From NCBI RefSeq assembly GCF_016907235.1, contig NZ_JAFBBO010000001.1, positions 2,170,001 to 2,234,000 of the forward strand: a stretch of 64,000 nt of DNA, written 5' to 3'. This document shows positions 7,174 to 55,721 of this stretch, piece by piece; the first letter of the stretch is position 1; every line of letters starts with the position of its first letter. Source of the stretch: Oerskovia jenensis (GTDB lineage: Bacteria > Actinomycetota > Actinomycetes > Actinomycetales > Cellulomonadaceae). A program made the position numbers and the translations under genes. The notes below the pieces were generated by a model. The model worked only from the letters and a program-made list of their open reading frames with translations, did no database searches and was not told the origin of the DNA.

Positions 7174-8280
7174 GTGCTCACCAAGATGACGGTCACCGAC
7201 GACCAGCTCGCCCGCCTCGTGTCCCCGCTCGGCGAGATCGCCGCCGCCGCTCCCCTGGACGGCGGGCTGTTCGCCTCGACGTTCCGGGTCGACCTCACGG
7301 ACGGCCGGCGCGTCGTCGTGAAGATCACGAGCGCCGACACGTCCCGCCTGCTGCGCTACGAGCACGGGATCCTCGGTACCGAGGAGACGGTGTACCGCCT
7401 CGTGGCCGACCGTCCTGACCTCCTGATGCCGCGCGTCGTCCACAGCGACTTCAGCCGGTCCGTGCTCGACGGCGACGCCCTGGTCGTCACGTTCCTCGAC
7501 GGCGCCGTGTGGAACACGCTGCCCCCGCTCGACGACGACGCGACGGCTCGGGTCCACCACGACCTCGGCGCGTTCATGGCCCGCCTGCACACCGTCACGG
7601 GCGACACGTTCGGCTACCCCGCCCCGGCGTCCGGGATGAGCGCCGCGACGTGGCCCCAGGCGTTCGGCCTCATGGTCGAGGCGCTGCTCGCCGACGCCGG
7701 GACCTGGGGCGTCGACCTCCCCGTCGAGGCCCTGCGGGCCGTGGTCGCACGCCACCACGACGCGCTCGCCGAGGTCACGGTGCCGCGCCTGGTCCACGCC
7801 GACCTGTGGCCCGGCAACCTGTTCCTGTCCGACGCGACGTCCGGGTCGCTCGACGCGCCCTCGCCTCCACGCCTGAGCGGCGTGATCGACACCGAGCGCT
7901 GCCTGTGGGCCGACCCCCTGTACGAGCTCGCGGGCGCCGACCAGCTCGGCCTCGGCCCTGTTCCGCCGGCCCTCGCCGCGGGCTACCGGGCGGCAGGCGG
8001 TCACCTCCCGGTCGACGAACCGTGGTTCGCGGCGCCCACCCCGGGTGAATTCCGGCCCGACGGCGTCGCACCGGACGGGAGCGACGCCGTCGGGCGGGTG
8101 CGTCCCGGGGCGAGCACGCTCGGGGCCGGTGACGTGCGCCTGCTCCTGTACCGCGCGTACATCAGCGCGGTGCTCGTGACCGAGGTCGTGCCGCGCGACT
8201 ACCAGGGCGAATGGGTCCAGGGCTACCGCGACACCGCCGCGGCGAACCTCGACGTGCTGCTGGACCAGCTCTCGCGCTGA
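7174..8280 (+). CDS. Aminoglycoside-phosphotransferase-fold kinase (APH family)
   Basis: About 368 aa. GTG 7174 or ATG 7186 are the candidate starts; neither has a clear ribosome site, so the message may be nearly leaderless. Kinase-like features: N-lobe VVVKITSAD with the ATP-binding Lys near residue 50, catalytic loop HADLWPGNLFL, and metal-binding IDTERCLWADP in place of the usual IDxE..GDP. The family phosphorylates small molecules (antibiotics, choline, fructosamine and others), so resistance should not be assumed. An in-frame 41-base palindrome (8055-8095) inserts RPDGVAPDGSDAVGR between two helices of the C-lobe. A family A hairpin ends the gene. Confidence 0.82.
   Translation: MLTKMTVTDDQLARLVSPLGEIAAAAPLDGGLFASTFRVDLTDGRRVVVKITSADTSRLLRYEHGILGTEETVYRLVADRPDLLMPRVVHSDFSRSVLDGDALVVTFLDGAVWNTLPPLDDDATARVHHDLGAFMARLHTVTGDTFGYPAPASGMSAATWPQAFGLMVEALLADAGTWGVDLPVEALRAVVARHHDALAEVTVPRLVHADLWPGNLFLSDATSGSLDAPSPPRLSGVIDTERCLWADPLYELAGADQLGLGPVPPALAAGYRAAGGHLPVDEPWFAAPTPGEFRPDGVAPDGSDAVGRVRPGASTLGAGDVRLLLYRAYISAVLVTEVVPRDYQGEWVQGYRDTAAANLDVLLDQLSR
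8055..8095. repeat. CCCGACGGCG palindrome inside the APH-like gene, read in frame
   Basis: Perfect 15-bp arms (8055-8069 with 8081-8095) around an 11-base loop. It is translated as part of a Gly/Asp/Pro-rich loop, with no frame break before or after. Confidence 0.8.
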
Positions 8281-8293
8281 CCCCCCGGCTCCT

Positions 8294-8335
8294 TGTCAGA
8301 ACCAGCGTGACCCCGAGGCCACGCTGGTTCTGACA
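8294..8335. repeat. Dispersed palindrome, family A (TGTCAGAACCAGCG), intergenic
   Basis: Perfect 16-bp arms (8294-8309 and 8320-8335, 10-base loop), 13 bases after the APH stop, so a likely terminator. The same arm recurs at 25705, 31104 and 31218. Confidence 0.8.
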
Positions 8336-8479
8336 CGAACGGGTCGCATGGGGAGGAGTGCCCATACCGTCCCAGGGCAGGGTTGAGTCACGCTAGAGTT
8401 CGGGCAAGTTCACGATCACGTCAAGTGTTCGGGCGACCCGTGCTCGGCGGCGCGACGTGACGACCCCTGGGGGTATGCG

Positions 8480-8950
8480 GTGATCACGTTCGTCGTCGTC
8501 GGCATCGTCGGGCTCGTGCTCGTGCTGGTCTCGATGATCCTCGGGGAGTTCATCGAGCTCGGCGACGGCGCCGTCTCGGGGACCTCGCTGGGCGTCGGCG
8601 CGATCGTCTTCGGCGCGACCGGCGCGATCGTCGTGTCGAACGACCTGCCCGTCGTCCTCGCGTACGTGGGGTCCGCCGTCCTCGCGGTCCTCGCCGTCCT
8701 CCTCGTGCACCTGCTCACCACGAAGCTCCGCGAGTCCGACGACGCCGCCCCCGTCTCGCTCGTCGGCGTCCAGGGGACCGCCACGAGCGACATCTCGTCC
8801 GCGACGGGAGAGGTCTCCCTCGACGCCGCCCGCGAGCTCGAGCGGCGCCTCGCCTGGGCCGACGAGCCGATCCCCTCGGGCGCCCGCGTGGTCGTGCTCG
8901 AGCAGTCCGGCACCCGCGTCCGCGTCCGGCGGCACTTCCCCAACGACTGA
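8480..8950 (+). CDS. NfeD-like membrane protein, flotillin partner
   Basis: 156 aa, GTG start. Three N-terminal hydrophobic helices (about 2-22, 30-52 and 55-78) are followed by a soluble C-terminal domain that reads like the NfeD OB fold: LVGVQGTATSDI, then ARVVVLEQSGTRVRV near the end. NfeD proteins pair with SPFH/flotillin proteins in bacterial membrane microdomains, and the flotillin gene follows 137 bases downstream. The assignment rests on architecture plus this neighbour. The gap between them has low-complexity Ala/Pro/Arg sequence and no clear terminator, so co-transcription is likely. Confidence 0.75.
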   Translation: MITFVVVGIVGLVLVLVSMILGEFIELGDGAVSGTSLGVGAIVFGATGAIVVSNDLPVVLAYVGSAVLAVLAVLLVHLLTTKLRESDDAAPVSLVGVQGTATSDISSATGEVSLDAARELERRLAWADEPIPSGARVVVLEQSGTRVRVRRHFPND

Positions 8951-12033: not shown

Positions 12034-12825
12034 TCACCCGATCCAGCCGAGCCACACCACGGCGTCACGCGCGAGCAGGAACCCGACGATCCCCACGACC
12101 CACGCCGTGGTCGACGCCGCGTTCTTCGTCATCCACGCGTTGAGCCGGTCGAGGAGCGGCCCCACCTGGCGGGCCGCGAGGACGCGCCCTGCCAGGAGCA
12201 CCAGCGCGGGCAGCACCATGACGACGCAGTACCCGGCCAGCACGACCGCGGTCGCAGGCCATCCGAGGTCCGAGCGCGTCATCATCCCGATCGCCGCGAG
12301 GTACGGCAGCATCGACGCGAGCTCGATCGCCGCGGCCGCGAGCGCCAGCCCCATGAGGGCCGTGACCGAGCCGGTGCGCGGCGCGGTCACGACGCCCGGG
12401 TGCGCTCCGCCGTCGGGCAGGGGCGTGAGGCCCGACGGCGCCGCTCCGGTCTCGCTCGACGCACCCATCGCGCGGGCCCGCCACCGCAGGACGCGGCCCC
12501 CACCGTCCGACGAACCCTTGGACCGCCGGTCGAGGCGGAAGCTGTACGCGACGAGCGCGGCCCCCACGAGGAGCTCGACGATCCGGGCGGGCCGCGTCTC
12601 GAACAGCCGGCCGAACCCTTCGGCGAAGGCCCCAGCCCCCAGCGCGATCACGATCCCGACCACGAGGTAGAACCCGACGATCGTGCCCAGGTAGACGAGC
12701 AGCCGCGCGACCCGTACCCGGCCCGGGGTCATGAGCAGCCAGACCGGGATGAGCAGCGTCCCGAAGCTCGTCGAGTCGACGAGGGCCAGGACCACGAGCG
12801 CGCCGAGGAGCGGGAGAAGTTCCAT
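12034..12825 (-). CDS. GAP-family (Sap-like) integral membrane protein
   Basis: 263 aa, about six membrane helices. The first helix reads LLPLLGALVVLALVDSTSFGTLLIPVWLLM, close to the start of actinobacterial GAP/Sap proteins, which were implicated in transport of surface glycopeptidolipids and sulfolipids in mycobacteria and resemble LysE-type exporters. The cytoplasmic loop between helices 3 and 4 (about residues 100-150) contains an in-frame CCCGACGGCG palindrome. ATG 12825 has AAGGGTGG upstream. Divergent from the histidine kinase at 12952. Substrate is unknown. Confidence 0.78.
   Translation of the reverse strand: MELLPLLGALVVLALVDSTSFGTLLIPVWLLMTPGRVRVARLLVYLGTIVGFYLVVGIVIALGAGAFAEGFGRLFETRPARIVELLVGAALVAYSFRLDRRSKGSSDGGGRVLRWRARAMGASSETGAAPSGLTPLPDGGAHPGVVTAPRTGSVTALMGLALAAAAIELASMLPYLAAIGMMTRSDLGWPATAVVLAGYCVVMVLPALVLLAGRVLAARQVGPLLDRLNAWMTKNAASTTAWVVGIVGFLLARDAVVWLGWIG
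12408..12440. repeat. CCCGACGGCG palindrome inside the GAP-family gene
   Basis: 11-bp perfect arms (12408-12418 and 12430-12440). Read on the minus strand it encodes the loop segment GLTPLPDGGAHPG between membrane helices. Confidence 0.72.
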
Positions 12826-12951: not shown

Positions 12952-14442
12952 GTGCCCGACCCCCTGCCTGCGCCCGCCGACACCGCCGCGGCCGACGCCC
13001 CGGTGGCCGACGCCTCGCGCGTGCGGCGGTTCCTGCGCCGGGTCGACGCCGGGTTCCGCGACGACGGGCCCGGCGGGGACCCGTACGACGCGGCCGGGAC
13101 GTTCGTGCTCGGGGTCGCGCTGCTCGCGGTCGGGGTCGTCGCGGTGTGGTCCTTCCCGCCGTTCGTCGAGCCGGCCAACCGGTGGTGGCACGTCCTGCCC
13201 CTCGCGGTCGGCTGCCTCCTGCTCCTCGTCAAGCGCCGACACACCGCCCTCGCGCTGGTCGGCGGGCTGCTCGTCCTCCTCGCGGACATCGCGATCGGGG
13301 GCAGCCTGAGCGTCCTCCTCGTCCTGTGGGAGCTGCTCTTCGCGAGCGGGCTCTACGGGAGCAGGCGGCTGCGACGTGTCGTCAACATCGTCGTGACGGT
13401 GCTCGTCGCCGCGGCCGCCGTCGCCACGGCCGAGTACTTCCGGGACGTGCAGGGGTTCGTCCTGGGAGGGATCCAGGCGGCCGCGATCATCGCGACCCCC
13501 CTGTGGTGGGCCGCGAACGTGCGGCAGAAGACCGACCTCGCGGACCTCGCGGCGCAACGAGCCGACCTCGAGGCACAGCGCGCCGACCTCGAGGCGCAAC
13601 GGGCCACCGACCTGGAGCGGATCGCCGAGCTCGGCCAGCACGAGGCCGTGCGGGCCGAGCGCGCGGCGATGGCGCGCGACCTGCACGACGTCATCGCGTC
13701 GCACCTGTCGGCCATCGCGATCCACTCGGGGGCCGCGCTCGCGTCGCCGCCCGACGCGGCCAAGGACCGGGCGGCCCTCGAGCTCGTGCGGTCGAGCAGC
13801 ATCACGTCGCTCGAGGAGATGCGCGCCATGATCCTGCTGCTGCGCTCGGACCTTCCCCGCGACCCGGCCCCCTCGGCCGGGCCGTCGGAACGTGACCGGG
13901 ACGGGGACCGGCTCCGTCCCGACCACCGGTCCACGGTGCTCGCGGGCGAGGCCGTCGCAGCCCCCGCGCGCCTCGCCGGGCTCGACGACGTGATCTCGTC
14001 CGCGCGCGCCCAGGGCCTCACGGTCGAGGTCGACGACCCCGACGACGCCCGGGCGGCGCGCCTCCCGTCGGCTCTCGACCAGGCCGCGCACCGGATCGTG
14101 CAGGAGGCGCTGACGAACGCGTCCAAGCACGCCCCGGGGGGCCGGGTGCGGGTCGTGCTCGGGCTGGGCGACCTCCCCGAGCAGGTCCTCACGGTCGAGG
14201 TCACGAGCACGCTGACCGCCTCCCCCGGGCCGCTGCCCCCGAGCCTGAGCGCCCGCACCGGTCTCCTCACGATGCGCGAACGCGCCGAGGCGCTCGGTGG
14301 CACGTTCCGGGCGGGCTCGACCGAGGCGGGCGACGCGTGGACCGTCCGGGCCGACCTGCCGCTGGGGCGGTCCTGCGCGGAGGCGTCCGGACGCACCCCG
14401 CCCGCCCTCGACCCCGCCGACACCCCTGGAGCCCCCGCATGA
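12952..14442 (+). CDS. Sensor histidine kinase, NarL/DesK type
   Basis: 496 aa, GTG start. Four to five membrane helices (about 45-190), then a coiled linker with repeated AQRADLE units (about 198-222). The HisKA_3 box RDLHDVIASHL follows with phospho-acceptor His245, then a HATPase domain with N-box EALTNASKHAPGG and G-box TGLLTMRERAEALGG. It phosphorylates the response regulator that overlaps its stop by ATGA. The signal is unknown; there is no large external domain, so it may sense the membrane itself, as DesK does. The tandem AQRADLE repeat could vary in number between strains. Confidence 0.9.
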   Translation: MPDPLPAPADTAAADAPVADASRVRRFLRRVDAGFRDDGPGGDPYDAAGTFVLGVALLAVGVVAVWSFPPFVEPANRWWHVLPLAVGCLLLLVKRRHTALALVGGLLVLLADIAIGGSLSVLLVLWELLFASGLYGSRRLRRVVNIVVTVLVAAAAVATAEYFRDVQGFVLGGIQAAAIIATPLWWAANVRQKTDLADLAAQRADLEAQRADLEAQRATDLERIAELGQHEAVRAERAAMARDLHDVIASHLSAIAIHSGAALASPPDAAKDRAALELVRSSSITSLEEMRAMILLLRSDLPRDPAPSAGPSERDRDGDRLRPDHRSTVLAGEAVAAPARLAGLDDVISSARAQGLTVEVDDPDDARAARLPSALDQAAHRIVQEALTNASKHAPGGRVRVVLGLGDLPEQVLTVEVTSTLTASPGPLPPSLSARTGLLTMRERAEALGGTFRAGSTEAGDAWTVRADLPLGRSCAEASGRTPPALDPADTPGAPA

Positions 14443-15125
14443 TCCGTGTCCTGCTCGCCGACGACCACGCCGCGATCCGGGCCGGGCTCCGGTTCCTGCT
14501 GGACGCGGCCCCGGACATCGAGGTCGTGGGCGAGGCCGCCGACGGCGCGGCGGCGATCACGAACGCCCGCGCCCTGCGCCCCGCGGTCGTCCTCATGGAC
14601 CTGCGCATGCCCGGCGTCGACGGCATCGAGGCCACCCGCACGATCGTCACCGAGCGACTGGCCGAGGTCCTCGTCCTGACGACGTTCGACCTCGACGAGT
14701 ACGTCGACGAGGCCCTGCGCGCGGGGGCCGCGGGGTTCCTGCTCAAGACCGCGGAGCCCGCGGCGCTCATCGACGCGGTCCGCCGCGTCGCGGCCGGCGA
14801 CGGCGTCCTCGCCCCCGAGGTCACGCGCCGCCTCCTCGCGGCGTTCGCGTCCGCCCCCCGGCCCGACGGCGCCGCTCACCTCCCGGGGCGCGCTGCGCCG
14901 TCGGGCCAGGGGATGCCGGGCGACCCGCGACTGTCCGACCTGACCCCGCGCGAGACGGACGTCCTCGCGGCCCTGGGTCGCGGGCTGTCCAACCAGGGCA
15001 TCGCCGACGAGCTCGTCATCAGCGAGGCCACGGCCAAGACGCACGTGTCGCGCGTGCTCGCCAAGCTCCAGGTCACGACCCGCATGCAGGCGGCCATCGT
15101 GGCGCGGGACACGGGACTCGCGTAA
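14439..15125 (+). CDS. LuxR/NarL-type response regulator
   Basis: 228 aa, ATG 14439 overlapping the kinase stop (ATGA) with GGAG upstream. Receiver domain residues 1-120 with acidic pair near D8/D9, phosphorylation site Asp54 (VVLMDLRMPG) and conserved Lys near 104 (GFLLKTAEP). The C-terminal LuxR helix-turn-helix (about 165-228) reads LTPRETDVLAALGRGLSNQGIADEL then SEATAKTHVSRVLAKL. The inter-domain linker is lengthened by an in-frame CCCGACGGCG palindrome (14860-14907). It forms a two-component system with the preceding kinase; target genes are not evident here. Confidence 0.92.
   Translation: MIRVLLADDHAAIRAGLRFLLDAAPDIEVVGEAADGAAAITNARALRPAVVLMDLRMPGVDGIEATRTIVTERLAEVLVLTTFDLDEYVDEALRAGAAGFLLKTAEPAALIDAVRRVAAGDGVLAPEVTRRLLAAFASAPRPDGAAHLPGRAAPSGQGMPGDPRLSDLTPRETDVLAALGRGLSNQGIADELVISEATAKTHVSRVLAKLQVTTRMQAAIVARDTGLA
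14860..14907. repeat. CCCGACGGCG palindrome inside the response-regulator linker
   Basis: 13-bp perfect arms (14860-14872 and 14895-14907). It encodes RPDGAAHLPGRAAPSG exactly between receiver and DNA-binding domains, the place most tolerant of insertion. Confidence 0.8.
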
Positions 15126-15144
15126 CGCGCGCCCTCTGCCCGCG

Positions 15145-15204
15145 CCGAGAAGTGAGTAATTGCCCCTGAATCGCGGGATTCAGGGGCAATTACTCACTTC
15201 TCGG
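15145..15204. terminator. 28-bp perfect palindrome, bidirectional terminator-like
   Basis: Arms 15145-15172 and 15177-15204 are perfectly complementary with a 4-base loop. The sequence (AGAAGTGAGTAATTGCCCC) is much less GC-rich than its surroundings. It separates the convergent response regulator and sugar porter. Confidence 0.8.
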
Positions 15205-15222
15205 CAGGGGTGGGACGGCGCG

Positions 15223-16710: not shown

Positions 16711-16823
16711 GACGACCCCCTCCGTGTCAGGTTGTCCTTTGACGATAGTGAGGAGAGGGCGTGGTCGCGCGGTGAGCGACCGTGGTGAGGGTCACGCGGC
16801 AGGTCACGGTTGCTCGTGGCCGC

Positions 16824-17588
16824 TCACGGCACCGCGTCGAGGACCATCCAGGTGACGTGCGGCGTCGGGCCGACGGCGCCGCCCGGGTCCCAGACGGCGT
16901 CGCACCCGTCCGGGCCGCCCGAGACAGCGCCCCAGTCGAGACCTGTCGCTCCCGTGACGTACGCGATCGCGACCGCGGCGTCGTCGCCCGCGACCGCCGG
17001 CCACGAGAGCCCGGTCACGACGACCCACGTGCCCGGGACCTTCCAGTACTCGACGGGTTCGTCGGCGTCGACGCCCTCCAGGCCGAGCGCTGCGACGAGC
17101 TCGCGCGTCCGGGCTGCGGCCTCGTCCGCGTCGCGCGCCTCGACGTGGGACCGCAGCGTCACGTGACGGTGGCGCAGGCGGTCGCCCGGCCAGGTGCGTC
17201 CAGCCGTCTCGGGCGCGTGCTCCTCGACAGCGAGCCGCCTCCCGTCGTCGGCCCGGAACCAGCCCGTCGGCACGATCCGGTCCGCAGGGACGCCGACGAG
17301 GTCTCCCTCGCCGTCGAGCTCGACCGCGAACGACCAGGGGCGACCCCGCCACGGGCGGACGACCCCACGCACCACGCCGACGCCCGCCTCCGCACCCGAG
17401 GGCGCGAGCACCCGGACCTCGTGCCCCCACCAGACGGCGGGCGGCTCCTCGTCGGTCTCCACCAGGGGACGGTACCGCGGCGTCCCGTCGCCGAGAGTGC
17501 AGTTCGGGCTGTCGTCCGGCGCGTAGGACGACCCGAACTGCACACTCGGCGAGCGGCCTCGGGAACCGGCGCGACGTCGTCGGGCCAT
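16824..17588 (-). CDS. Uncharacterised protein with a palindrome-encoded N-terminal segment
   Basis: 254 aa from ATG 17588. No family recognised. Residues 1-12 are basic (MARRRRAGSRGR). Residues about 13-33 (SVQFGSSYAPDDSPNCTL) are encoded by a family B palindrome. A soluble alpha/beta domain follows, with two apparent halves: WWGHEVRVLAPSG..VGVVRGVV, then a C-terminal part containing YWKVPGTWVVVTGLSWP and HVTWMVLDAVP. A shorter start after the palindrome (GTG in PLVETDEE) is possible, in which case the repeat would be merely upstream. Not evidently part of an operon. Confidence 0.6.
   Translation of the reverse strand: MARRRRAGSRGRSPSVQFGSSYAPDDSPNCTLGDGTPRYRPLVETDEEPPAVWWGHEVRVLAPSGAEAGVGVVRGVVRPWRGRPWSFAVELDGEGDLVGVPADRIVPTGWFRADDGRRLAVEEHAPETAGRTWPGDRLRHRHVTLRSHVEARDADEAAARTRELVAALGLEGVDADEPVEYWKVPGTWVVVTGLSWPAVAGDDAAVAIAYVTGATGLDWGAVSGGPDGCDAVWDPGGAVGPTPHVTWMVLDAVP
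17491..17549. repeat. Dispersed palindrome, family B, near the 5' end of a gene
   Basis: 18-bp arms (17491-17508 and 17532-17549, one mismatch), extended by a partly paired GTCGTCC/GGACGAC inner stem. The sequence matches the intergenic copies at 5202 and 60808. Confidence 0.75.
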
Positions 17589-17618
17589 CTCGACCGGAGG
17601 ACTCGCCGTCCCGCACCG

Positions 17619-18512
17619 CTACCCGGCCACGGACCGCGCCGCCTCCCGACGCGCGTCGGCCGCCGCCCGCAGGACTTCGGCCGTGCGGTCGTCGGCCGGG
17701 AGGAACGTCTCGATCGTGAGCTCGGACAGCGTGACGTCGACGGGCGTCCCGAAGGTCGTGACCATCCCCAGGAAGGCGAGCTCGTCGGCGCCGTGGCGCA
17801 GCCGGAACGGGATCGCGAGACCGCTCCGCTCGGGGTCGGCCGGCCCTGCGCCCGCTGCGGGCACGGCCGGGACCGGGTACGCGTCGACCTCGCGGTGGAG
17901 CTCCGCGAGGTCGACGTCGGCGCTCCACTCGACCTGGCGACGCAACCGGCCCAGCAGCTCCCCGCGCCAGCGGGCGAGGTCGACGACGTGCGGCGCCATG
18001 CCCCGCGGGTGCAGACCGACGCGGAGCACGTTCACGGGCTCGGTCAGGAGGTCCTCGTCGACCCCGTCGAGCAGCACCTCGACCGACGCGTTGGCCTCGA
18101 TCAGCGTCCACGTCCGGTCCACGACGAACGCCGGGAACGGGTCGTGCGCGTCCAGGACGGCCCGCAGCGACAGCCGCAGGGACTCCAGCGCCGCACCGTC
18201 GACCGGGGTCTCGGGGTGGGCGGGCGCGTACCCGGCGGCCAGCATCAGGCGGTTCCGCTCGCGCAGCGGGACGTCCAGGACCTCTCCCAGCCGGGCCACG
18301 AGCCCCGGGCTCGGCCGGGACCTCCCGGTCTCCACGTAGCTCAGGTGCCGGGTCGAGACGTCGGCCTCGATCGAGAGCGCGAGCTGGCTCACGCGCCGGC
18401 GCTCGCGCCACCCGCGGAGCAGCGCGCCCACGGAGGTCTGCGCCGGCGGGGTGGCGGGCGTGCGGATCGCCGTCCGGGGCGCAGGGCCCGCAACGGCCGG
18501 GACCCCGGTCAC
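17619..18512 (-). CDS. XRE-family regulator with MmyB-like ligand domain
   Basis: 297 aa from GTG 18512, whose GTGA overlaps the stop of the upstream membrane-protein gene. The helix-turn-helix (about residues 18-75) contains RRVSQLALSIEADVSTRHLSYVETGRSRPS. The MmyB-like domain follows: FPAFVVDRTWTLIEANASVEVLL, then VNVLRVGLHPRGMAPHVVDLARW. This domain binds fatty-acid-like ligands in a characterised homologue; the ligand here is unknown. Coupling with the membrane protein suggests co-regulation, possibly through the palindrome at 19012-19028. Confidence 0.9.
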   Translation of the reverse strand: MTGVPAVAGPAPRTAIRTPATPPAQTSVGALLRGWRERRRVSQLALSIEADVSTRHLSYVETGRSRPSPGLVARLGEVLDVPLRERNRLMLAAGYAPAHPETPVDGAALESLRLSLRAVLDAHDPFPAFVVDRTWTLIEANASVEVLLDGVDEDLLTEPVNVLRVGLHPRGMAPHVVDLARWRGELLGRLRRQVEWSADVDLAELHREVDAYPVPAVPAAGAGPADPERSGLAIPFRLRHGADELAFLGMVTTFGTPVDVTLSELTIETFLPADDRTAEVLRAAADARREAARSVAG

Positions 18513-18949
18513 CGAGGGCCGCCCAGGCGGCGCAGGGCGACCGCTTCGGTGATCGTGATCCACAGGACGGCGACGGCCTGGGCGGCCACGAAGAGGACTC
18601 CCCAGAGCGTGGGCGACCAGACCAGCAGGACGGCGACGCTCGCGGCCATCCACGCGCAGTTGGCGACGACGACGGCCCGCGCGGCGCCCCGATGGAGGGG
18701 AACGGCGTGCGCGGTGAACCACAGGAAGGTCGCGAGGACCACGAGCACGACGCCCGCCCCGACCAGGAGCGGGACGGGCAGGCCGAGGGGGCCGGCGAGC
18801 GGGACCGCCGCGACCAGCAGCAGCGGTGCGCTCACGAGCCCGGCGACCGCGTCGGTACGGATCGCCCGCCGGAGGTCGGCCTCGGGGGCCTCGGGCCCGG
18901 GGTGGGACGCGGCGGTGCGGGCGGGAGCGGGACGGGGAGCGGGATGCAT
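18509..18949 (-). CDS. Four-helix membrane protein coupled to the XRE regulator
   Basis: 146 aa. A Pro/Ala-rich cytoplasmic start is followed by four hydrophobic helices (about 35-58, 62-84, 90-108 and 115-135). No family recognised; the compact four-helix form resembles several unnamed actinobacterial membrane proteins and SPW-like proteins. GGAGG lies 5 bases before ATG 18949, an excellent ribosome site. It is first gene of a two-gene unit with the MmyB-type regulator. A 17-bp operator-like palindrome lies 63 bases upstream. Confidence 0.7.
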   Translation of the reverse strand: MHPAPRPAPARTAASHPGPEAPEADLRRAIRTDAVAGLVSAPLLLVAAVPLAGPLGLPVPLLVGAGVVLVVLATFLWFTAHAVPLHRGAARAVVVANCAWMAASVAVLLVWSPTLWGVLFVAAQAVAVLWITITEAVALRRLGGPR

Positions 18950-19011
18950 CGTTACCTCCGGTGGGCGGGCGTTGTGGGTCCCACTCTCGGGCGGACGCGT
19001 GCACCCTGTCG

Positions 19012-19028
19012 ATGACCTCGGAGGTCAT
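19012..19028. promoter_or_regulatory. Operator-like palindrome upstream of the membrane protein/XRE pair
   Basis: ATGACCTC-G-GAGGTCAT, perfect 8-bp arms around one base. Its position 63 bases upstream of the ATG suits a regulator site. No direct link to a particular protein can be shown. Confidence 0.4.
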
Positions 19029-19134
19029 GCTGACGCCCCAGAAACCGGCGCCCCCCAAGGGAGACCCCTCCATGCCCCCTGCCGGATGGCTGGCGCGTAG
19101 TCTGGATGCGACGAGCGCCGGCCATCCATCGGAG

Positions 19135-20196
19135 TTACTCGCTCCTTCGCAGAAGATCAAATTCCCTGCCGTTTCGCGGGACCGTAAGGCTTGCCACCAG
19201 CACCACCAGGGCGAGACACGCCAAATAGCTCGCACCTCCACGGAGAAGGGCTTGCTGAAGAGCGACAAGAGATCCATCTGCCACATGATGAATAGTGAGC
19301 AGCGTGGAGGCGAGGCTCGGTAGAATCGTCAAAGCAGCCTCGGCCGCACCGATCACCACAAGGCCGACCCGAGGCGCACCGCAGGTTGAATAAAGAGCTA
19401 ACTCGCGCGAACGCATGCGAAGCATGAGCGCCGTGACGAGCGAAAAGAACACGGCTGGAGCAAGCCACAGCAAGCGGTCCGGCCGTCCTGCTTGAACGGA
19501 CTCAAGATCAGGTACCGCGACGTCGGTCAGAGGCGCCACGATCACGGGACCCGTAAACTCAGTCGACAGGATCACTGAAGCCAACGCTCGATCGATGTCC
19601 CTAGAGAACTCCACGAGACACTGGCCTTGCACGGCAGAGCCGACTTCAACAAACACAATGGCCCTCGAGGCCGACTCGGCACGGGGGCTTGCCGAACCTA
19701 AGCTCACGCTCGAGCTTCTCCCCGCGATGTTCACCCGGTGGTCGGGGCCAAGACCTAACTCATCCGCTGCGCCCGCGCCGACATAGAGCGACGAATCATA
19801 CACTGGCCTGAAACCTAGAATTTCCAACGCGCCACTAGTTGCCAAGAATGAAGCGAAGACTCCTGCAGGCTGCTCGTCGACGACGACAGAATCTGATGCC
19901 GCGATGCCTCCCGATTGCTTGACTATCTCACCGATAGAACGCAGAGCGCCACACTCCTGCCCCGAGACGCCACCACTTTCTCCGACTCCGGCGTCGGCTG
20001 CGCTCACAAGATAGGCGCGACCGCCCGCGTCAACCGCCTCGCGATGCTCGCGCAGCATGCTCTCGTAGAACTGGGCTTCCCGTGCACCCAAGAAACCAAA
20101 CGACAAGACGGCTATTATCGCCAGCACAAAGAATCGCCAAGGAGTGGCAAGGATGTTCGCGAACGCCTCTTGAATGCACAGGAATATCAACCTCAT
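19135..20196 (-). CDS. FtsX/MacB-like ABC transporter permease
   Basis: 353 aa from ATG 20196, which overlaps the ATPase stop (ATGA). Layout is that of MacB-type permeases: one N-terminal helix (about 20-40), a long extracytoplasmic domain (about 45-245) and three C-terminal helices (about 250-272, 285-310, 320-340), with short cytoplasmic segments such as RSRELALYSTCGAPR, which fits the FtsX 'coupling' loop. Last gene of the island operon. With the ATPase and the peptidoglycan-binding adaptor it would form a MacAB-type pump acting on extracytoplasmic substrates or conferring resistance. The sequence is less GC-rich than flanking DNA, suggesting acquisition. Confidence 0.75.
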   Translation of the reverse strand: MRLIFLCIQEAFANILATPWRFFVLAIIAVLSFGFLGAREAQFYESMLREHREAVDAGGRAYLVSAADAGVGESGGVSGQECGALRSIGEIVKQSGGIAASDSVVVDEQPAGVFASFLATSGALEILGFRPVYDSSLYVGAGAADELGLGPDHRVNIAGRSSSVSLGSASPRAESASRAIVFVEVGSAVQGQCLVEFSRDIDRALASVILSTEFTGPVIVAPLTDVAVPDLESVQAGRPDRLLWLAPAVFFSLVTALMLRMRSRELALYSTCGAPRVGLVVIGAAEAALTILPSLASTLLTIHHVADGSLVALQQALLRGGASYLACLALVVLVASLTVPRNGREFDLLRRSE

Positions 20197-20849
20197 CGGT
20201 CTGCGCCAAGAACTACATGGAGCCGGCACGCGCCAGCCACGACTAGATCGTGCGTGGCGAGCAAGAGCGTCACAGATGGCGCAACGGAGGATAGGGCGGC
20301 AATCACGGATGCCGTGTTCTCACCATCCAGCGATGCGGTCGGCTCATCGGCGAGAATGAGTTTTGCACCTCGGACCAGAGCGCGAACGAGGGCGACGCGC
20401 TGCACCTCTCCCCCGGAAAGAACCGAAACATTCTTCTGCACCGCAGACGACAGCCCCATCTCGGCCAGGAGATGGAGCGCCAGATCCACCGCACTCACGC
20501 TGTTGGTAGGCGCAAAACGGGAAGCTAGCAGGACATTGTCAAGAACGGATCTACCAGGCAGGATCGTCGGCGTCTGGGGAATCCACGCGATGCCGACCTC
20601 CGAGCGTAGGCGCGTACGCATACGCGCCGACAGTCGTGAGTACGTCTCGCCGTAGAACGAGAGCTCTCCAGACGACCAGTTCGTCTGTAGACCGACTATT
20701 GCCATCAGCGTTGACTTGCCGCTTCCCGATGGGCCCGAAATGGCGACGGACGACCCTGCCGGGACCTCGAACGAAGTGGGGTGCAAGACTGTCAGGTTCC
20801 CCAACTTCTTCTCGACCCGATCAAGCTTGACCGCCGCATGCGGGCTCAA
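20193..20849 (-). CDS. ABC transporter ATPase (MacB/LolD type)
   Basis: 218 aa. Walker A GPSGSGKST near residues 39-47, Q-loop WIPQTPTI, signature LSGGEVQRVALVRAL, Walker B LILADEPTASLD and H-loop ATHD are all intact. Such short ATPases drive MacB/LolCDE/FtsX-like permeases. It overlaps the adaptor gene by four bases and the permease by four bases, so translation is coupled. Codon choice is more A/T-rich than in genes outside the island. Confidence 0.9.
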   Translation of the reverse strand: MSPHAAVKLDRVEKKLGNLTVLHPTSFEVPAGSSVAISGPSGSGKSTLMAIVGLQTNWSSGELSFYGETYSRLSARMRTRLRSEVGIAWIPQTPTILPGRSVLDNVLLASRFAPTNSVSAVDLALHLLAEMGLSSAVQKNVSVLSGGEVQRVALVRALVRGAKLILADEPTASLDGENTASVIAALSSVAPSVTLLLATHDLVVAGACRLHVVLGADR

Positions 20850-21952
20850 GAGTCTCCCAAGCAGATCGTGTCCAGCTTCGACGAAACGGGATTCGCAACA
20901 TACTCGACGGTGGACTGCTGCGACAGTTCAAAGAGGCCAACCCCTGAAGCGGTGTCGCTCGAGAGGACATCCACACGTTGGGCCGCGTGCCCCTGCTTGT
21001 CCTTCACGACAAGACACTCGCCCGCTGTCGTGCTGACAATCGCGTGCGACGAGACCTTCACTAGAGACTCCGGGTAGACGATCGACAACTGTACGGGCAC
21101 CTCGACCGTGAGTTGCGCCGGCTCAGACCCTTGGAAAACGCTGGAAAGAAAAGGCAGCGTGACTGGATTGATAGCGATCTCGCCCGTTGGACCCACCTCG
21201 GCTCGGGCGTCGCCCAGTGCAGCGGTCAGCACCGAGCCCTCTGGGCTACTCGCTAGTGAGACAATGTGTGCGCTGCTTATCGTCGACTGGAGGGTCGCTA
21301 TCGATTCGCCTGCGCCCGGCGCTGGCTCCCCCACTGCAACGTCGATGCTTCCGAGTACGCCAGACGGGTGCGGTATCCAGATGGTCCAACTAGGAGAGAA
21401 TGTCGACACCTCCTCTGGTTTGAGTGGAGGTACGCCGATGTACTCCCGGAACTTTTTCAGGGCGGATGCCGTGCGGGAGTCGAACTTTTCAGGTTGCTTC
21501 GGCAGCGACCGCATGTAGCCCAAGTCGAGAAGCAGGCGATTCAGGGCTCGCACGTCCTCGCCTGTATCGCCTTCTACTAGTTCCCGGAAGAACGGACCGG
21601 AATGTGCCGCGATTCGCTTGACACCTTGCACCTCCAAGACGACTGTTCCGGTCTCGAACGTTGATCCGGCGACTGCCACTACATCTGTCACCACTCCGTC
21701 CCAAGCAGGAGCAAGCAGCACCTCGGAGGGAGTCCTAGACACGGCCAGCTGGGTGGCGACGCTGCGCGTCTCGCCGCTGGCAGACGCTACTACGTAGATC
21801 GGCGCCTCGGCGGCCGCGAGCTCGACATCCAGGTTCTTCGCTGTCTGATACAGATAGACGGTGGCTGCGGCGACGATCGCTAGAAACGTCACCATCAGGA
21901 CACCGGCGGTACGCACTCCTGCTGGTGGGGGGATCGAGTTCCTCAACGACAA
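20846..21952 (-). CDS. Membrane-anchored transport adaptor with peptidoglycan-binding domain
   Basis: 368 aa from TTG 21952 (GAGGCGG upstream). One N-terminal helix (about 15-37), then a lipoyl/HlyD-like half (PAWDGVVTDVVAVAGSTFETGTVVLEV, about 80-108). A PGB_1 peptidoglycan-binding domain follows (about 118-170: ELVEGDTGEDVRALNRLLLDLGY and RTASALKKFREYIG), then more adaptor beta-barrel sequence. This architecture is known from Gram-positive adaptors that accompany MacB-type ABC transporters, linking the pump to the wall. Gap to the lipoprotein gene upstream is three bases; overlap with the ATPase downstream is four. Confidence 0.82.
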   Translation of the reverse strand: MSLRNSIPPPAGVRTAGVLMVTFLAIVAAATVYLYQTAKNLDVELAAAEAPIYVVASASGETRSVATQLAVSRTPSEVLLAPAWDGVVTDVVAVAGSTFETGTVVLEVQGVKRIAAHSGPFFRELVEGDTGEDVRALNRLLLDLGYMRSLPKQPEKFDSRTASALKKFREYIGVPPLKPEEVSTFSPSWTIWIPHPSGVLGSIDVAVGEPAPGAGESIATLQSTISSAHIVSLASSPEGSVLTAALGDARAEVGPTGEIAINPVTLPFLSSVFQGSEPAQLTVEVPVQLSIVYPESLVKVSSHAIVSTTAGECLVVKDKQGHAAQRVDVLSSDTASGVGLFELSQQSTVEYVANPVSSKLDTICLGDS

Positions 21953-21955
21953 GGT

Positions 21956-22603
21956 TCAGCCCGCCTCAAGCTGCTCTAGGGCATCGCTGAGTCCCGGGAC
22001 GGCGGTCACGGTCGCAGTCTGAAGTTCGAGTGAGCACTGTTCGACGAGCTCGAGCCGCAAGGGCGGATCTGGTTCAGTACGGTCTGCCTTGACGGCTTCC
22101 TGGAGGACTTTTGTCGCCTGTTCATACGAATCCTCTGGGGCGATCTCCTCATAGCCTGCGTCGTGTGCGCACGAGACAAACCCGCTTTTGGCTGCCTCGA
22201 GCTCGGAAGCGCTGGGCTGCTTCTGAAGAAGCCAGACAGCATCAATAGCGTCGACCTCCGCCCGGCAGTCCTCTGCGAGTTTCGACTTCGAATCAGCTTC
22301 CTCATCTGAGCCCGCTTCAAATTCGACTACCACGCCGCTGATGCCGGACGCAAGACCAGTCGATTCGGTAGCAAAGCCCTGCGACTCCAAGCACTCGATG
22401 TATGATCGCGTGCCATGCTCCAGTTCGTCCTGGCTCACCACTTTGTCAGACAGAGCATCTTGCTCGATGGAACTGAGGCTGGATAGCAGCTCAATCGCGC
22501 GAGCATCGATCTCGGGCGCTCCTTGAGCAGACGAGCAGGCGGTCCCGATCAGCAGAATGGCGATTGCCCCGAGACCGATGGCGGCGTTCCGTTGGTGCAA
22601 CAT
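21956..22603 (-). CDS. Lipoprotein of the island operon
   Basis: 215 aa from ATG 22603 (GGAAGG upstream). Signal peptide with lipobox IGTAC at about residues 18-22. The exported part is acidic and mostly helical, with five further Cys (IECL, EDCRAE, VSCAHDAG and EQCSLE contexts). The spacing hints at two related helical halves, each with a Tyr/Cys motif (RSYIECLESQGF and SGFVSCAHDAGY). No known family. Position directly before the adaptor suggests that it is a substrate-capturing or immunity lipoprotein for the pump; this is inference. Confidence 0.7.
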   Translation of the reverse strand: MLHQRNAAIGLGAIAILLIGTACSSAQGAPEIDARAIELLSSLSSIEQDALSDKVVSQDELEHGTRSYIECLESQGFATESTGLASGISGVVVEFEAGSDEEADSKSKLAEDCRAEVDAIDAVWLLQKQPSASELEAAKSGFVSCAHDAGYEEIAPEDSYEQATKVLQEAVKADRTEPDPPLRLELVEQCSLELQTATVTAVPGLSDALEQLEAG

Positions 22604-22635
22604 TGTGGCCTTCCAGAATTTGTGGGGCGATTCGA

Positions 22636-23482: not shown

Positions 23483-23494
23483 CCATAGGGTTGA

Positions 23495-23625: not shown

Positions 23626-23639
23626 TTTGGAGCATTGCG

Positions 23640-25003: not shown

Positions 25004-26368
25004 CTACGGCTCGGGGTGCAGCGCGTCGTACTTGAGGAAGCGCGGCTGCGCCCGCAGGATGAGCCACACCACGACGATGCAGGCCAGGCCGCCCGCGACC
25101 GCGGCCCACGCCTCGCCGAACCAGCTCGCCTGCGCACCGAGCACGACCTCGCCCAGCCGCGGGCCGCCCGCGACGACCACGATGAAGACGCCCTGGAGGC
25201 GGCCGCGCATGTCGTCGGGGGTCGCGGTCTGCAGGATCGTCTGGCGGAAGACCGCGCTCACGGCGTCGGAGGCCCCCGCGAGGGCGAGCGCGACGCACGC
25301 CGCGACGAGCCCGCCCACGAGCATCTGGGGCGGGTTCGTCGAGCCGACCAGGAGCAGCACGGCACCGAACGCCGCGATCGACAGCCCCCACGCCGTGATG
25401 GCCCACGCGATCACCAGCCCCTGCCAGCGCACGCGCGACAGCGCCCCGGAGAACACCCCGGCGAGCACCGCGCCGACCGCGAACGCCGCGCTCAGGATGC
25501 CCGTCGTGGTCTCGCCGCCGCCGATGAACAGGACGCCGACGGCGGGCAGCAGCACGCGCGGGAAGGCGAGGATCATCGCGGCGAGGTCGACCAGGAAGGT
25601 CGTGCGGACGTTGGGCCGGGTCGCGAGGTAGCGCAGCCCGTCGATCACGGAGCTGATGCCGACGACCTTGCGGCGGGGTGCGTCGTCGATCGTGACCACC
25701 GAGCTGTCAGAACCAGCGTGACCTGGAGTGCTCGCTGGTTCTGACACGTCACCGGTAAGGACGGGTGGGATCGACGGCAGCCGCCACACGGCCCACAGCG
25801 CGGCCGCGAACAGCACCACGTCGATCGAGTACGCGATCCCGTACCCCCACAGCGCCACGAGGAACGCACCGAGCAGGGGTCCGACGGTCAGCGCGATGCT
25901 CCACGAGATGGTCTGGAGCGCGTTCGCGGCGGGCAGCAGCCGGGGCTCGACCAGTCGCGGGATGATCGCCGAGCGTGCGGGGTTGTTGATCGCGAACGCC
26001 GCGGACTGGAGCGCGACGAGCCCGTACAGGACCCCCACCGAGCCGACGTCGAGCCACGCCTGGAGCGCGAGCAACCCCGTGACGATCCACAGCGCCCACG
26101 ACGCGAGGAGCGCGACCTTGCGGCGGTCGTAGGCGTCGACGAGCGCGCCGCCGTACAGGCCGAGCGCCACGAGGGGCACGAGCGCGAAGATCCCGAGCAC
26201 GCCGACCGCGAGCGTCGAGCCCGTGAGCGCGTACACCTGGAGGCCCACGGCCACGACCGTGAGCTGGGAGCCGAGGTTGGAGATCCCGAGCCCCCACCAC
26301 AGCCGGCGGAACGGCGGGGAGACGCGGAGCGGGGTCGTGTCGGCAAGGATGCCGTCGAGGCGGGGCAC
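25004..26368 (-). CDS. MFS exporter (EntS/MFS_3-like)
   Basis: 454 aa, twelve helices. The start FRRLWWGLGISNLGSQLTVVAVGLQVYALTG and the loop GGALVDAYDRRKVALLAS are typical of the EntS-like group of exporters (siderophore, macrolide or drug efflux). The cytoplasmic loop between helices 6 and 7 (about residues 205-235) contains a family A palindrome read in frame (encoding SEPASTPGHAGSDSS), normally a variable loop. The first ATG has no strong ribosome site visible. Substrate unknown. Divergence or coupling with neighbours is not evident; the right neighbour gntR is on the same strand. Confidence 0.85.
   Translation of the reverse strand: MPRLDGILADTTPLRVSPPFRRLWWGLGISNLGSQLTVVAVGLQVYALTGSTLAVGVLGIFALVPLVALGLYGGALVDAYDRRKVALLASWALWIVTGLLALQAWLDVGSVGVLYGLVALQSAAFAINNPARSAIIPRLVEPRLLPAANALQTISWSIALTVGPLLGAFLVALWGYGIAYSIDVVLFAAALWAVWRLPSIPPVLTGDVSEPASTPGHAGSDSSVVTIDDAPRRKVVGISSVIDGLRYLATRPNVRTTFLVDLAAMILAFPRVLLPAVGVLFIGGGETTTGILSAAFAVGAVLAGVFSGALSRVRWQGLVIAWAITAWGLSIAAFGAVLLLVGSTNPPQMLVGGLVAACVALALAGASDAVSAVFRQTILQTATPDDMRGRLQGVFIVVVAGGPRLGEVVLGAQASWFGEAWAAVAGGLACIVVVWLILRAQPRFLKYDALHPEP
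25705..25746. repeat. Dispersed palindrome, family A, inside an MFS gene
   Basis: 14-bp arms (25705-25718 and 25733-25746) with the same TGTCAGAACCAGCG core as the intergenic copies at 8294, 31104 and 31218. It falls in the central cytoplasmic loop. Confidence 0.82.
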
Positions 26369-29356: not shown

Positions 29357-29391
29357 GGCCCGACGGCGGAGCGCGCCTCCGCCGTCGGGCC
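29357..29391. terminator. CCCGACGGCG-family bidirectional terminator
   Basis: Perfect 14-bp stem (29357-29370 with 29378-29391), followed by CTT on the plus strand, between convergent gntP and the VIT1 gene. Confidence 0.75.
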
Positions 29392-31103: not shown

Positions 31104-31145
31104 TGTCAGAACCAGCGTGAGCTCTGGGTCACGCTCGTTCTGACA
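31104..31145. repeat. Dispersed palindrome, family A, first of a tandem pair
   Basis: 17-bp arms (31104-31120 and 31129-31145) with one mismatch. Together with the next copy it fills most of the 309-base gap between the FKBP and RNase H genes. Confidence 0.78.
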
Positions 31146-31217: not shown

Positions 31218-31259
31218 TGTCAGAACCAGCGTGAGGTCTGGGTCACGCTCGCTCTGACA
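31218..31259. repeat. Dispersed palindrome, family A, second of a tandem pair
   Basis: 17-bp arms (31218-31234 and 31243-31259), two mismatches. Left arm is identical to the first copy; decay is confined to the right arm. Confidence 0.78.
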
Positions 31260-31965: not shown

Positions 31966-32016
31966 AGAACGGGTTCGAGGTCGCCACCGCGTCGGTGGCG
32001 ACCTCGAACCCGTTCT
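31966..32016. repeat. Dispersed palindrome, family C (GAACGGGTT), after rnhA
   Basis: Perfect 23-bp arms (31966-31988 and 31994-32016) and a 5-base loop, 17 bases after the rnhA stop; terminator-like. Related copies at 32531, 33633 and 37986. Confidence 0.8.
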
Positions 32017-32530: not shown

Positions 32531-32591
32531 CGCCGAGAACGAGGTTGCGGTCGTTCCGGGGATCACGGCGACCTCGATCCCGTTCTCGGCG
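32531..32591. repeat. Dispersed palindrome, family C, degenerate copy
   Basis: Left CGCCGAGAACGAGGTTGCGG and right CGACCTCGATCCCGTTCTCG pair with a few mismatches, between the SnoaL-like remnant and the glycosylase gene. Confidence 0.65.
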
Positions 32592-33632: not shown

Positions 33633-33687
33633 CGAGCACGGGGTCGAGGTCGCCAGAGTCGTCAGAACGGCCTCAACCCCGTGCTCG
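33633..33687. repeat. Dispersed palindrome, family C, after the glycosylase
   Basis: 20-bp arms (33633-33652 and 33668-33687) with two mismatches; an additional half copy (GAGCACGAGGTTCC) lies just left at about 33612. Confidence 0.7.
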
Positions 33688-37985: not shown

Positions 37986-38039
37986 CAGAACGGGGTTGGG
38001 GCCGTTCCGAGGGGCAGAGCGGCCTCAACCCCGTGCTCG
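37986..38039. repeat. Dispersed palindrome, family C, end of the iron operon
   Basis: Left CAGAACGGGGTTGGGGCCG (37986-38004) and right CGGCCTCAACCCCGTGCTCG (38020-38039) pair with a few mismatches; terminator-like between convergent transcripts. Confidence 0.72.
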
Positions 38040-49062: not shown

Positions 49063-49125
49063 CGCTGAGTGCGGAGTACTTGTCGTCGAACGGGCGATCC
49101 GGCGACAAGTACTCCGCACTCAGCG
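49063..49125. terminator. 23-bp perfect palindrome between convergent genes
   Basis: CGCTGAGTGCGGAGTACTTG.. arms at 49063-49085 and 49103-49125 are perfectly complementary. Bidirectional terminator-like; only one copy in the window. Confidence 0.78.
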
Positions 49126-54117: not shown

Positions 54118-54214
54118 GACCGGCAGTGTCCCCGATCCCCGGGGATCGCGCGAGGCCCCGTCTCGCGGGGTGTCGCGCCGCCCGCCCGCACCCCACCCCT
54201 GGCAGGGTGTGCGC

Positions 54215-54952
54215 ATGGATCCGGACTACTCCCTGGCGGTGCGTGCCGCGTGCGAGTTCATCGGCACGGCGATTCTCATCATCATCGGCAACGGCACGGT
54301 CGCGAACGTGCACCTCAAGGGGTCCAAGGGGTACGGCGGCGGCTGGAGCCTCATCGCGATGGGCTACGGGTTCGGCGTCATGATCCCGGCCCTGATGTTC
54401 GGCGGGATCAGCGGCAACCACATCAACCCGGCGTTCACGATCGGGCTCGCGACGTGGGGCCTGTTCCCGTGGGCCGACGTCGCGCCGTACGTCGTCGCGC
54501 AGATGCTGGGCGCCATCGCGGGGCAGCTCGCGATCGTCGCGACCCACAAGCCGTACTACGACCGCACCACGAACACCGACGACGTCCTCGCGACCTTCTC
54601 GACCGTCAACGCCGCGCACAGCCGCGTGAACGGGTTCGCGAACGAGCTGCTGGGCTCGGTCATCCTGTTCTCGTGCGCCCTGGCGATCGTCAACTCGCCC
54701 CTGACCACGACCGAGCCCGGGCTCGCGCACATGGCCCTCGGCTTCCTCGTGTGGGCGCTCGTCGCGGGGCTCGGCGGACCGACCGGCCCGGCGCTCAACC
54801 CGGCCCGTGACCTCGGACCGCGCATCGTGCACGCACTCCTGCCCCTCAAGCACAAGGGCCCCTCCGACTGGGGCTACGCGTGGGTGCCCGTCGTCGCGCC
54901 GCTGCTCGCGGGGCTCATCGGGGTGGGCTGCTGGAAGCTGCTGCTGGGCTGA
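54215..54952 (+). CDS. Aquaglyceroporin (MIP/GlpF family)
   Basis: 245 aa, six membrane helices plus two half helices. First NPA motif GNHINPAFTIG and second GPALNPARDLGPRI; Asp after the second NPAR marks glycerol-conducting members. Passes glycerol or other small neutral solutes. ATG 54215 follows GCAGGG. Not next to glycerol kinase here, so a physiological role in glycerol use is inferred from family only. Confidence 0.9.
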   Translation: MDPDYSLAVRAACEFIGTAILIIIGNGTVANVHLKGSKGYGGGWSLIAMGYGFGVMIPALMFGGISGNHINPAFTIGLATWGLFPWADVAPYVVAQMLGAIAGQLAIVATHKPYYDRTTNTDDVLATFSTVNAAHSRVNGFANELLGSVILFSCALAIVNSPLTTTEPGLAHMALGFLVWALVAGLGGPTGPALNPARDLGPRIVHALLPLKHKGPSDWGYAWVPVVAPLLAGLIGVGCWKLLLG

Positions 54953-55043
54953 GCCGTGCAGCGGCCCGACGGCGGAACGAGCGTCCCGCTGTCGCGTGAC
55001 CCTCGGCGGGCGCGTACGTCGCCCGCGGCCGGCGGGGCCGCGC

Positions 55044-55721
55044 TCAGAGGCCCGCGACCAGCTCCAGCACCGCGGCCAGCACCTCGCCGAACCCGCGCTC
55101 GGGCTGGAACACGAGCCATTCGAGGCCCGCGACGAGCGTGGCCCCGAACACCGACGCCGCGAGGAGCGACACGTCGTCCCCGGGCCGTTCCTCGCGCAGC
55201 GCGGCCGCGTAGAACTCGATGACGCGCGCACGGATGTGCCCGACCGTCTCCTGCCACTCGCGCCCGACCCGGAAGACCTCGGCCGCGAGGAGCTTGGCGA
55301 AGTCGGGGTGGGCGCGGATCTGCTCGAGGAGCGACGCGATGAGCGCGGCGAGCGCCTCCTTGCCCTGCAGGCCCCCGCGGGCCTCGGAGAGCGTGAGGGT
55401 GAGGCGTTCGAGCCCGCCCGTGAGCGCGGCCTCGAACACGTCCGACTTGGACCCGAAGTTGTAGTAGACGCTGCCCTTGGCCACGCCCGCGGCGGCCGCG
55501 ATGTCCTCGACGGACGTGGCCGTGAAGCCCTGGTCGGCGATGAGGCTCACGGCCGCGTCGATGATCTGCTGCCGGGTCCCGGCACGGCGGGCCGCGAAGG
55601 CCTGCTCGCGCCGGGTCCCGGCCGGTTCGCCCGGGGTCGCGGGCTCACCGGTGACACCCGGCTCAAGGGGCCCGACGGCGCCCGGTCCGTCCGCCGTCGG
55701 GTCCACCTTGGTCGTCGTCAT
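55044..55721 (-). CDS. TetR-family repressor of the YhgE export module
   Basis: 225 aa. The first 45 residues are a Gly/Pro/Thr-rich extension that contains an in-frame CCCGACGGCG palindrome (TADGPGAVGP). The helix-turn-helix follows: QQIIDAAVSLIADQGFTATSVEDIAAAAGVAKGSVYYNFGSKSDVF (split at 20). The rest is a helical ligand domain. Third gene of a unit with a YhgE/Pip protein and an ABC-like ATPase, whose promoter has the TetR palindrome ACTGACCGGTCAGT, so it is the likely self-regulator. Ligand unknown. Confidence 0.9.
   Translation of the reverse strand: MTTTKVDPTADGPGAVGPLEPGVTGEPATPGEPAGTRREQAFAARRAGTRQQIIDAAVSLIADQGFTATSVEDIAAAAGVAKGSVYYNFGSKSDVFEAALTGGLERLTLTLSEARGGLQGKEALAALIASLLEQIRAHPDFAKLLAAEVFRVGREWQETVGHIRARVIEFYAAALREERPGDDVSLLAASVFGATLVAGLEWLVFQPERGFGEVLAAVLELVAGL
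55671..55701. repeat. CCCGACGGCG palindrome inside the TetR gene extension
   Basis: 10-bp perfect arms (55671-55680 and 55692-55701), translated within the N-terminal tail before the DNA-binding domain. Confidence 0.72.

Follow-up and report, generated by a model that had tools for sequence, protein, structure and literature searches.

A 42-bp palindromic repeat read in frame within genes of Oerskovia jenensis, and a candidate AbiEi-nuclease partner gene flanked by its copies

Rickettsia palindromic elements (RPEs) are short palindromes that lie in frame within unrelated protein genes and use a favoured reading frame. REP/REPIN sequences are dispersed palindromes that occur in doublets, persist as long-lived populations and flank a dedicated gene, that of the RAYT protein (PMC3116915, PMC8049555). 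CGTC repeats apparently lack a dedicated transposase, as described in a 2013 survey (PMC3733652), and what copies palindromic repeats without a RAYT is an open question. AbiEi antitoxins, in turn, bind inverted repeats in their own promoter (PMC7319586). Here we describe a 42-bp palindromic element, family B, met with in a 64,000-nucleotide stretch of the Oerskovia jenensis genome (the window: positions 2170001-2234000 of the single 4,453,691-bp contig of the source genome, G000), and name a specific, testable partner gene for it. Congeners compared are G001-G006; further relatives (e.g. G008, G009, G011, G013, G016, G017, G022, G026) are other numbered genomes.

A sequence-only reading of the window had pointed to six palindromes lying in frame inside genes, and had treated them as one group recalling the RPEs. 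All six are found in the sequence, at the positions reported or a few bases off. They fall into three unrelated families, A (8055, 12408, 14860, 55671), B (25705) and C (17491), so a single family for all six was rejected. Our own gene calls and the relatives place five of them in frame within genes (kinase, SfLAP or 'GAP' gene, response regulator, MFS and TetR); at 17491-17549, however, the gene call begins within the element, and a 1-base deletion inside it in G004 loses the frame. The whole-genome motif search suggested at that stage returned CCCGACGGCG-N5..30-CGCCGTCGGG 42 times in the 4.45-Mb genome and TGTCAGAACCAGCG 67 times, each against 0 in the reversed control. The analogy with RPEs is well supported for family B, which is an in-frame palindrome in unrelated genes, in a single favoured frame, mostly in linkers and tails, and absent from some orthologues, where relatives have empty sites. 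Coordinates are collected in Table 1.

Table 1. Palindromic elements of the window and the family B partner gene of G000 (window coordinates unless a contig is named)
Feature	Position	Strand	Remarks
Family B element, 42 bp, in frame, central loop of MFS gene (25004-26368 -)	25705..25746	-	peptide VSEPASTPGHAGSDS
Family B element, intergenic	8294..8335	.	13 bp past kinase stop codon
Family B element, intergenic, first of two	31104..31145	.	G003 and G005 have a single copy at the locus
Family B element, intergenic, second of two	31218..31259	.	
Partner gene, G000	G000:C1:1852956-1853813	-	~288 aa; between family B copies
Family A hairpin, in frame, APH-like kinase gene (7174-8280 +; APH, PF01636)	8055..8095	+	present or degenerate in 6/6 congeners; segment missing in G017, G016, G026
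Inside-out family A arms, in frame, SfLAP gene (12034-12825 -; PF11139)	12408..12440	-	in 5 congeners read; missing in G013, G017
Family A hairpin, response regulator linker (14439-15125 +)	14860..14907	+	in five congeners read; weaker inverted pair at the corresponding position in G013
Family A hairpin, N-terminal tail of TetR gene (55044-55721 -)	55671..55701	-	in 4 congeners read
Family A hairpin, intergenic	408..437	.	16 bp past stop codon
Family A hairpin, intergenic	29357..29391	.	between convergent genes
Family A hairpin, intergenic	61948..61989	.	between convergent genes
Family C palindrome (57-bp core 17492-17548), 5' end of gene	17491..17549	.	in-gene reading unsupported
Family E palindrome, 49 bp, intergenic	31967..32015	.	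same family flanks AbiEi-nuclease paralogue in G005
Family E-like palindrome, 49 bp, diverged	32537..32585	.	left out of 23-copy family E count
Family E palindrome, 49 bp, intergenic	33636..33684	.	
Family E palindrome, 49 bp, intergenic	37988..38036	.	

The 67 exact TGTCAGAACCAGCG half-sites of G000 make up 49 copies, of which 22 are in genes, 25 are intergenic and 2 span a gene end. Every one is exactly 42 bp long, with 14-bp arms around a weakly conserved 14-nt centre that is largely non-pairing, and in 25 of the 49 positions 10/33 form a C-C mismatch. Scanning the G000 stretches read with a weight matrix, with matches kept from 10 bits, gave 74 copies, divided into 25 in genes, 3 at gene ends and 46 intergenic by a simple codon-usage caller written for this analysis. 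Judged from G005, at least one of the 'intergenic' copies (2863820) probably belongs to the 5' end of a gene. The reversed control of the matrix, run at 15, 20 and 25 bits, had 0 matches in 1.42 Mb at 15 bits; one scan match (G011, 13.2 bits) lies below that level.

Five genomes together contain 54 in-gene copies (G000 25, G003 12, G005 7, G009 2, G011 8), which we tally as ∼36 distinct sites once orthologues are removed. All 54 use the same frame, (V/L)S...SD-like, and the peptide is a hydrophilic (V/L)SEPASTPGHARSD-like stretch of 14 codons; a second frame is also stop-free. Where element positions 15-17 read TGA, the used frame terminates, and 9 of 11 gene-end copies are in that frame, the protein being ended by the element's own stop. 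Host genes, by Pfam, include those for PutA, a NuoG-like protein, HemD, biotin carboxylase, an HrpA-like helicase, a P-type ATPase and MFS; CoA transferase, Hen1 and ABC proteins are also among the hosts, some of the names being our reading of domains. By our tally, 18 of the 25 in-gene elements of G000 are in linkers or tails, beyond the best matched domain stretch, and 7 fall inside one. PutA (G000:C1:3633519-3637091) and the NuoG-like protein (2861702-2863804) bear the peptide between their two domains, as a segment SEPA..HARSD.

The partner gene is located outside the window and so was invisible to the sequence-only reading. A gene of ∼288 codons lies between family B copies in G000, G003 and G009, the last of another genus, with adjacent genes that by eye look like those for a PiT transporter and a NUDIX protein; at the three loci read, no other gene lies between the flanking elements. 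Among 29 relatives searched, close homologues (54-100% identity) occur in G000, G001, G003, G004, G009, G011 and G016, representing four genera, and none was found in G002, G005 or G006. All seven close homologues are bordered left and right by TGTCAG-N30-CTGACA elements that deviate from the 12 fixed bases at no more than 1 position, five of the homologues having two per side, and 2.68 Mb of reversed loci gave 0 matches to this pattern. Element arms vary by lineage (TGTCAGAACCAGCG, TGTCAGTACCAGCG, TGTCAGAACTGAGC, TGTCAGGCG and others), roughly tracking partner-protein identity. Matches to the family B model, with both strands counted, number at least 150 each in G000 and G003, 74 in G002, 70 in G005, 43 in G004, 40 in G011, 39 in G009, 22 in G006 and 18 in G001, and there were none in the other 20 genomes searched.

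For a control, we took 666 genes of 150-450 aa (G003 partner gene included) and required strong hairpins of the same family within 300 bp on both sides. Three genes had them, one being the partner gene itself. Six distant paralogues (G011b, two in G022, one in G008, two in G005) are flanked by different palindromes of their own, on both sides in four cases and on one side in another; the remaining one had none at the same threshold. One of the G005 paralogues, L177, has family E palindromes around it, and 49-bp copies of this family are also present in the window.

Doublets of family B copies ∼62 bp apart, and the position of 31 of the 46 intergenic G000 copies no more than 30 bp from a 3' gene end, are features that REP/REPIN or MITE-type elements mobilised by a conventional transposase would also show, the flanked nuclease gene then being a passenger. 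This explanation is nevertheless improbable, given that the partner gene is bracketed by elements in 7/7 cases and that all 67 exact half-sites are confined to 42-bp elements, which leaves no longer insertion sequence (IS) with exactly these ends. Nor did a search of G000 aimed at the Y1 transposase class (PF01797) alone, positive in 5/14 controls, reveal a member. RAYT as the mover was rejected on the same result, which concerns G000 itself and not its relatives. A parent IS with exactly matching ends was set aside for want of unpaired exact half-sites, a finding that does not bear on diverged parents, and DNA uptake sequences were rejected because exact arms occur solely in strict 42-bp pairs.

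PADLOC AbiEi models match the N-terminal part of 10 of 12 partner-family members (E up to 1; best 2.3e-18), with a match of 1.1e-15 over residues 2-163 in member 1. Pfam AbiEi_1 is above cut-off once, in a G022 paralogue, and the founding partner protein has no Pfam or NCBIfam match. DUF559 matches weakly in 4/12 members, the best E value (0.061) falling below the cut-off and hence short of assignment to that nuclease family. D218, E232 and neighbouring residues are invariant across the family, a pattern that we take to fit a Vsr-type PD-(D/E)XK nuclease. These similarities make the partner a candidate fusion of an AbiEi-like region with a DUF559/Vsr-like nuclease region. Searches with two of the proteins in plasmids and three in viral contigs found no relatives.

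Alignment of host genes with their orthologues, proposed along with the original claim as a way to find insertions and empty sites, gave a divided answer. The 14-residue insert of PutA and NuoG is present in G000 and G003, diverged in G004 and absent in G001, G002, G005 and G006. Outgroups lack it too (12 correctly aligned ones for PutA and 6 for NuoG), some of them having unrelated linkers (PutA, 20 aligned of 24 genomes with a match, the misaligned G009 row being excluded; NuoG, 13 aligned of 16). On the species tree, these alignments indicate that more than one gain or loss is needed. The MFS element at 25705 is degenerate in G005 and G002 and diverged in G001 and G004, and the linker is shorter in several outgroup genera. 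Fifty G000 sites are readable in G005, and 22 of them are shared. The other 28, of which 17 are in genes and 11 intergenic, are missing or too changed to recognise; the 17 are out of the 25 in-gene copies of G000. Site 2796806 looks by eye like a near-exact 42-bp insertion, and other sites are not exact. The alignments, then, show turnover of family B sites, by gain, loss or both.

Between G000 and G003, both of which have the partner gene, 23 of 29 sites are shared, with identities of 637/644 in the arms (99%), 280/322 in the centres and 4501/5039 in the flanks (89%). One caveat here is that G003 stretches were chosen mostly for well-preserved copies, a selection toward intact sites. At eight sites reached without such selection, seven are shared, with arms 194/196 identical, and the eighth is absent. 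For G000 and G005, which lacks the partner gene, identities are 535/616 in the arms (87%), 262/308 in the centres and 4406/4813 in the flanks (91.5%). By these sequence comparisons, the arms are constrained with respect to G003 and decayed with respect to G005.

We think it probable that family B is a population of 42-bp palindromes dependent on the AbiEi-nuclease partner gene, whose product would bind and cut such that the elements are copied and maintained. The N-terminal AbiEi-like region would be expected to bind inverted repeats, and the C-terminal region to form a PD-(D/E)XK nuclease. The protein would contact the two 14-bp arms, kept at a constant distance whether the DNA is duplex or extruded, and would nick or cut the element; repair by the host would then both copy it to new places and guard it against decay. 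Copies in genes would survive when read as a hydrophilic 14-codon linker in loops, linkers and tails; intergenic copies lie mostly near 3' gene ends. Loss of the partner gene would leave the elements to decay or be deleted. Spread or refreshing by the partner protein most likely would parallel the supposed role of RAYT for REPINs, through other chemistry.

The main rival is that family B represents host-useful binding sites of the AbiEi-nuclease (for a regulon, chromosome organisation or defence), each kept by selection and not self-copying. Arms that are so much better conserved than flanks at G003-shared sites would be explained in this way, as would the strict length of 42 bp and the clustering of the 49 copies near 2.56 Mb on G000 (Rayleigh R 0.60), where 42 of them lie in the middle half of the contig. 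(As to origin versus terminus at the contig middle, the gene at the contig start is glnA-like, and inspection of both end stretches by eye revealed no recognisable dnaA.) On the other hand, selected binding sites would hardly differ in occupancy among close congeners to the extent seen with G005, sit in linkers of many unrelated genes, or come in lineage-specific sequence variants. We therefore regard this rival as unlikely, albeit worth keeping in view. Both it and the self-copying account predict binding; new insertions are predicted by self-copying alone.

A number of observations weigh against dependence on, and copying by, the partner gene. No movement of family B elements was seen and no target duplication was found. 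Some G005 sites retain one arm, indicating that deletions occur; several absences resemble deletions, and an exact 42-bp gap is rare among the empty sites. The PutA and NuoG inserts of G000, G003 and G004 fit losses on the tree as well as gains, and G001 has the partner gene yet no PutA or NuoG copies. The distribution of the gene on the tree requires at least three losses, and its co-occurrence with the element over 29 genomes (6/1/3/19, p = 0.0011) is a statistic that ignores phylogeny. The gene-less G002, G005 and G006 retain some near-perfect copies (best E 1.1e-13, 2.6e-13 and 2.9e-13), and site 1860407 is identical in G000, G003 and G005. In G013 and G008, which have no close homologue, the 36 and 43 kb read include 5 and 2 distinct loose matches to TGTCAG-N30-CTGACA, which counts against strict dependence. 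Under the stricter hairpin criterion of the gene control, two of the seven close homologues (G000, G003) are flanked on both sides, and the other five only by the 42-bp pattern, because arms near these genes are less perfect; a loose hairpin scan found no palindromes flanking the G011a and G016 genes, where the 42-bp pattern did. The nuclease assignment rests on sub-threshold Pfam matches. In PDB sequences, one partner protein had no match and a profile gave two meaningless ones (E 0.64, 0.97). Finally, the in-gene/intergenic split depends on our simple gene caller.

Family A differs from family B in most of these respects. Of its 42 perfect copies in G000 (CCCGACGGCG arms), 36 are intergenic, many within 60 bp past a stop codon, and 6 are in genes. 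Length is variable, stems differ in sequence yet pair, and the copies cluster near 2.26 Mb on the chromosome (Rayleigh R 0.35, 42 copies). The copy at 12408 is turned inside out (CGCCGTCGGGC..GCCCGACGGCG), hence a layout unlike the others. Since most copies are intergenic and of variable length, and those in genes of the window are kept intact or degenerate in every congener read, the RPE analogy is weak here, and we read family A as terminator-like hairpins, some old and within genes, whose mobility is unsupported. Extended to all the palindromes, the idea that they are terminators or mRNA hairpins arisen in place, with in-gene copies by chance, suits family A for the reasons given but is very improbable overall, as family B has 25 of 74 G000 copies in genes, a fixed length and a centre that largely does not pair.

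At the family A hairpins 29357-29391 and 61948-61989, some congeners have 0.9-2.9 kb of additional DNA, in several cases with a whole or half family A hairpin at one or both ends, which hints at exchange between hairpins.

Family C, a 57-bp GTGCAGTTCGGG palindrome, is intergenic in 8 of the 9 copies seen and at a gene end in the other, and the RPE analogy is unsupported for it. A length that is a multiple of three is therefore not sufficient for entry into genes. Family E copies are intergenic in 23/23 cases (stretches read of six Oerskovia genomes), as expected because 49 bp is not a multiple of three.

The window contains further palindromes. At 15144-15205 is a perfect one with 29-bp arms (GAGAAGTGAGTAATTGCCCC...), which in several congeners are altered and still pair. 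A 63-bp palindrome at 49063-49125 is identical in G005, replaced by another in G004 and absent in G001 and G003. A compound palindrome with doubled GAGACGGGTGCTC arms, at 59277-59355, is strongly different in congeners. Separately, 7.4-8.2 kb (17587-25001 versus G004; 16809-24998 versus G001, G002, G003 and G005) has no aligned counterpart in these five congeners. Its core, 19000-24500, has a G+C content of 57-62%, versus 72% for the window, and the seven open reading frames tested have zero Pfam matches above cut-off. This stretch is a probable acquired island.

Taken more broadly, partner-gene absence accompanies element decay in G005, the closely examined relative, and distant paralogues bring different palindromes. 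On balance, we lean towards a class of palindrome families in the Micrococcales, each with its own AbiEi-DUF559/Vsr-like nuclease gene between its copies that drives or guards the population, as a transposase-free counterpart of REPIN/RAYT. Within it, a family with a multiple-of-three length (B, 42 bp) would also enter genes as a coding linker, and E (49 bp) would stay intergenic. In open-licence papers, at the level of title and abstract, we found no report tying AbiEi, DUF559 or Vsr-like genes to palindromic repeats.

How does family B compare with the known systems? It resembles REP/REPIN with RAYT in its dispersed palindromes, doublets, flanked dedicated gene and long-lived populations, but differs in having an AbiEi/Vsr-like partner instead of a tyrosine transposase, many in-gene copies and a fixed length of 42 bp. 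Intragenic copies are likewise known for CGTC-tagged REPs (R. conorii RPE-4 and RPE-6), which have 8-9 bp stems and 4-5 nt loops in the survey (PMC3733652), unlike the 14-bp arms and 14-nt centre of family B; that text makes no use of the word actinobacteria. GACG/CGTC adjoins family B copies at 15/148 flanks in G000, versus a background of 1.4%, and at 14/30 in G011, and GGGT likewise at 14/148 in G000. The partner shares an N-terminal AbiEi region with AbiEi of AbiE (PMC7319586), yet the region is joined to a nuclease-like one, the sites are genome-wide, and no other gene lies between the elements at the three loci read. The pairing of palindrome and nuclease-like gene hints at a novel type of DNA partnership, one that spreads or maintains itself. 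With RPEs, family B has in common its in-frame palindromes in unrelated protein genes; it differs in its length, its free-living actinobacterial host, the dedicated gene that it flanks and the many copies (46 of the 74 seen) that are intergenic. A coding palindrome in a free-living, culturable actinobacterium makes protein change via inserted hairpins testable outside Rickettsia.

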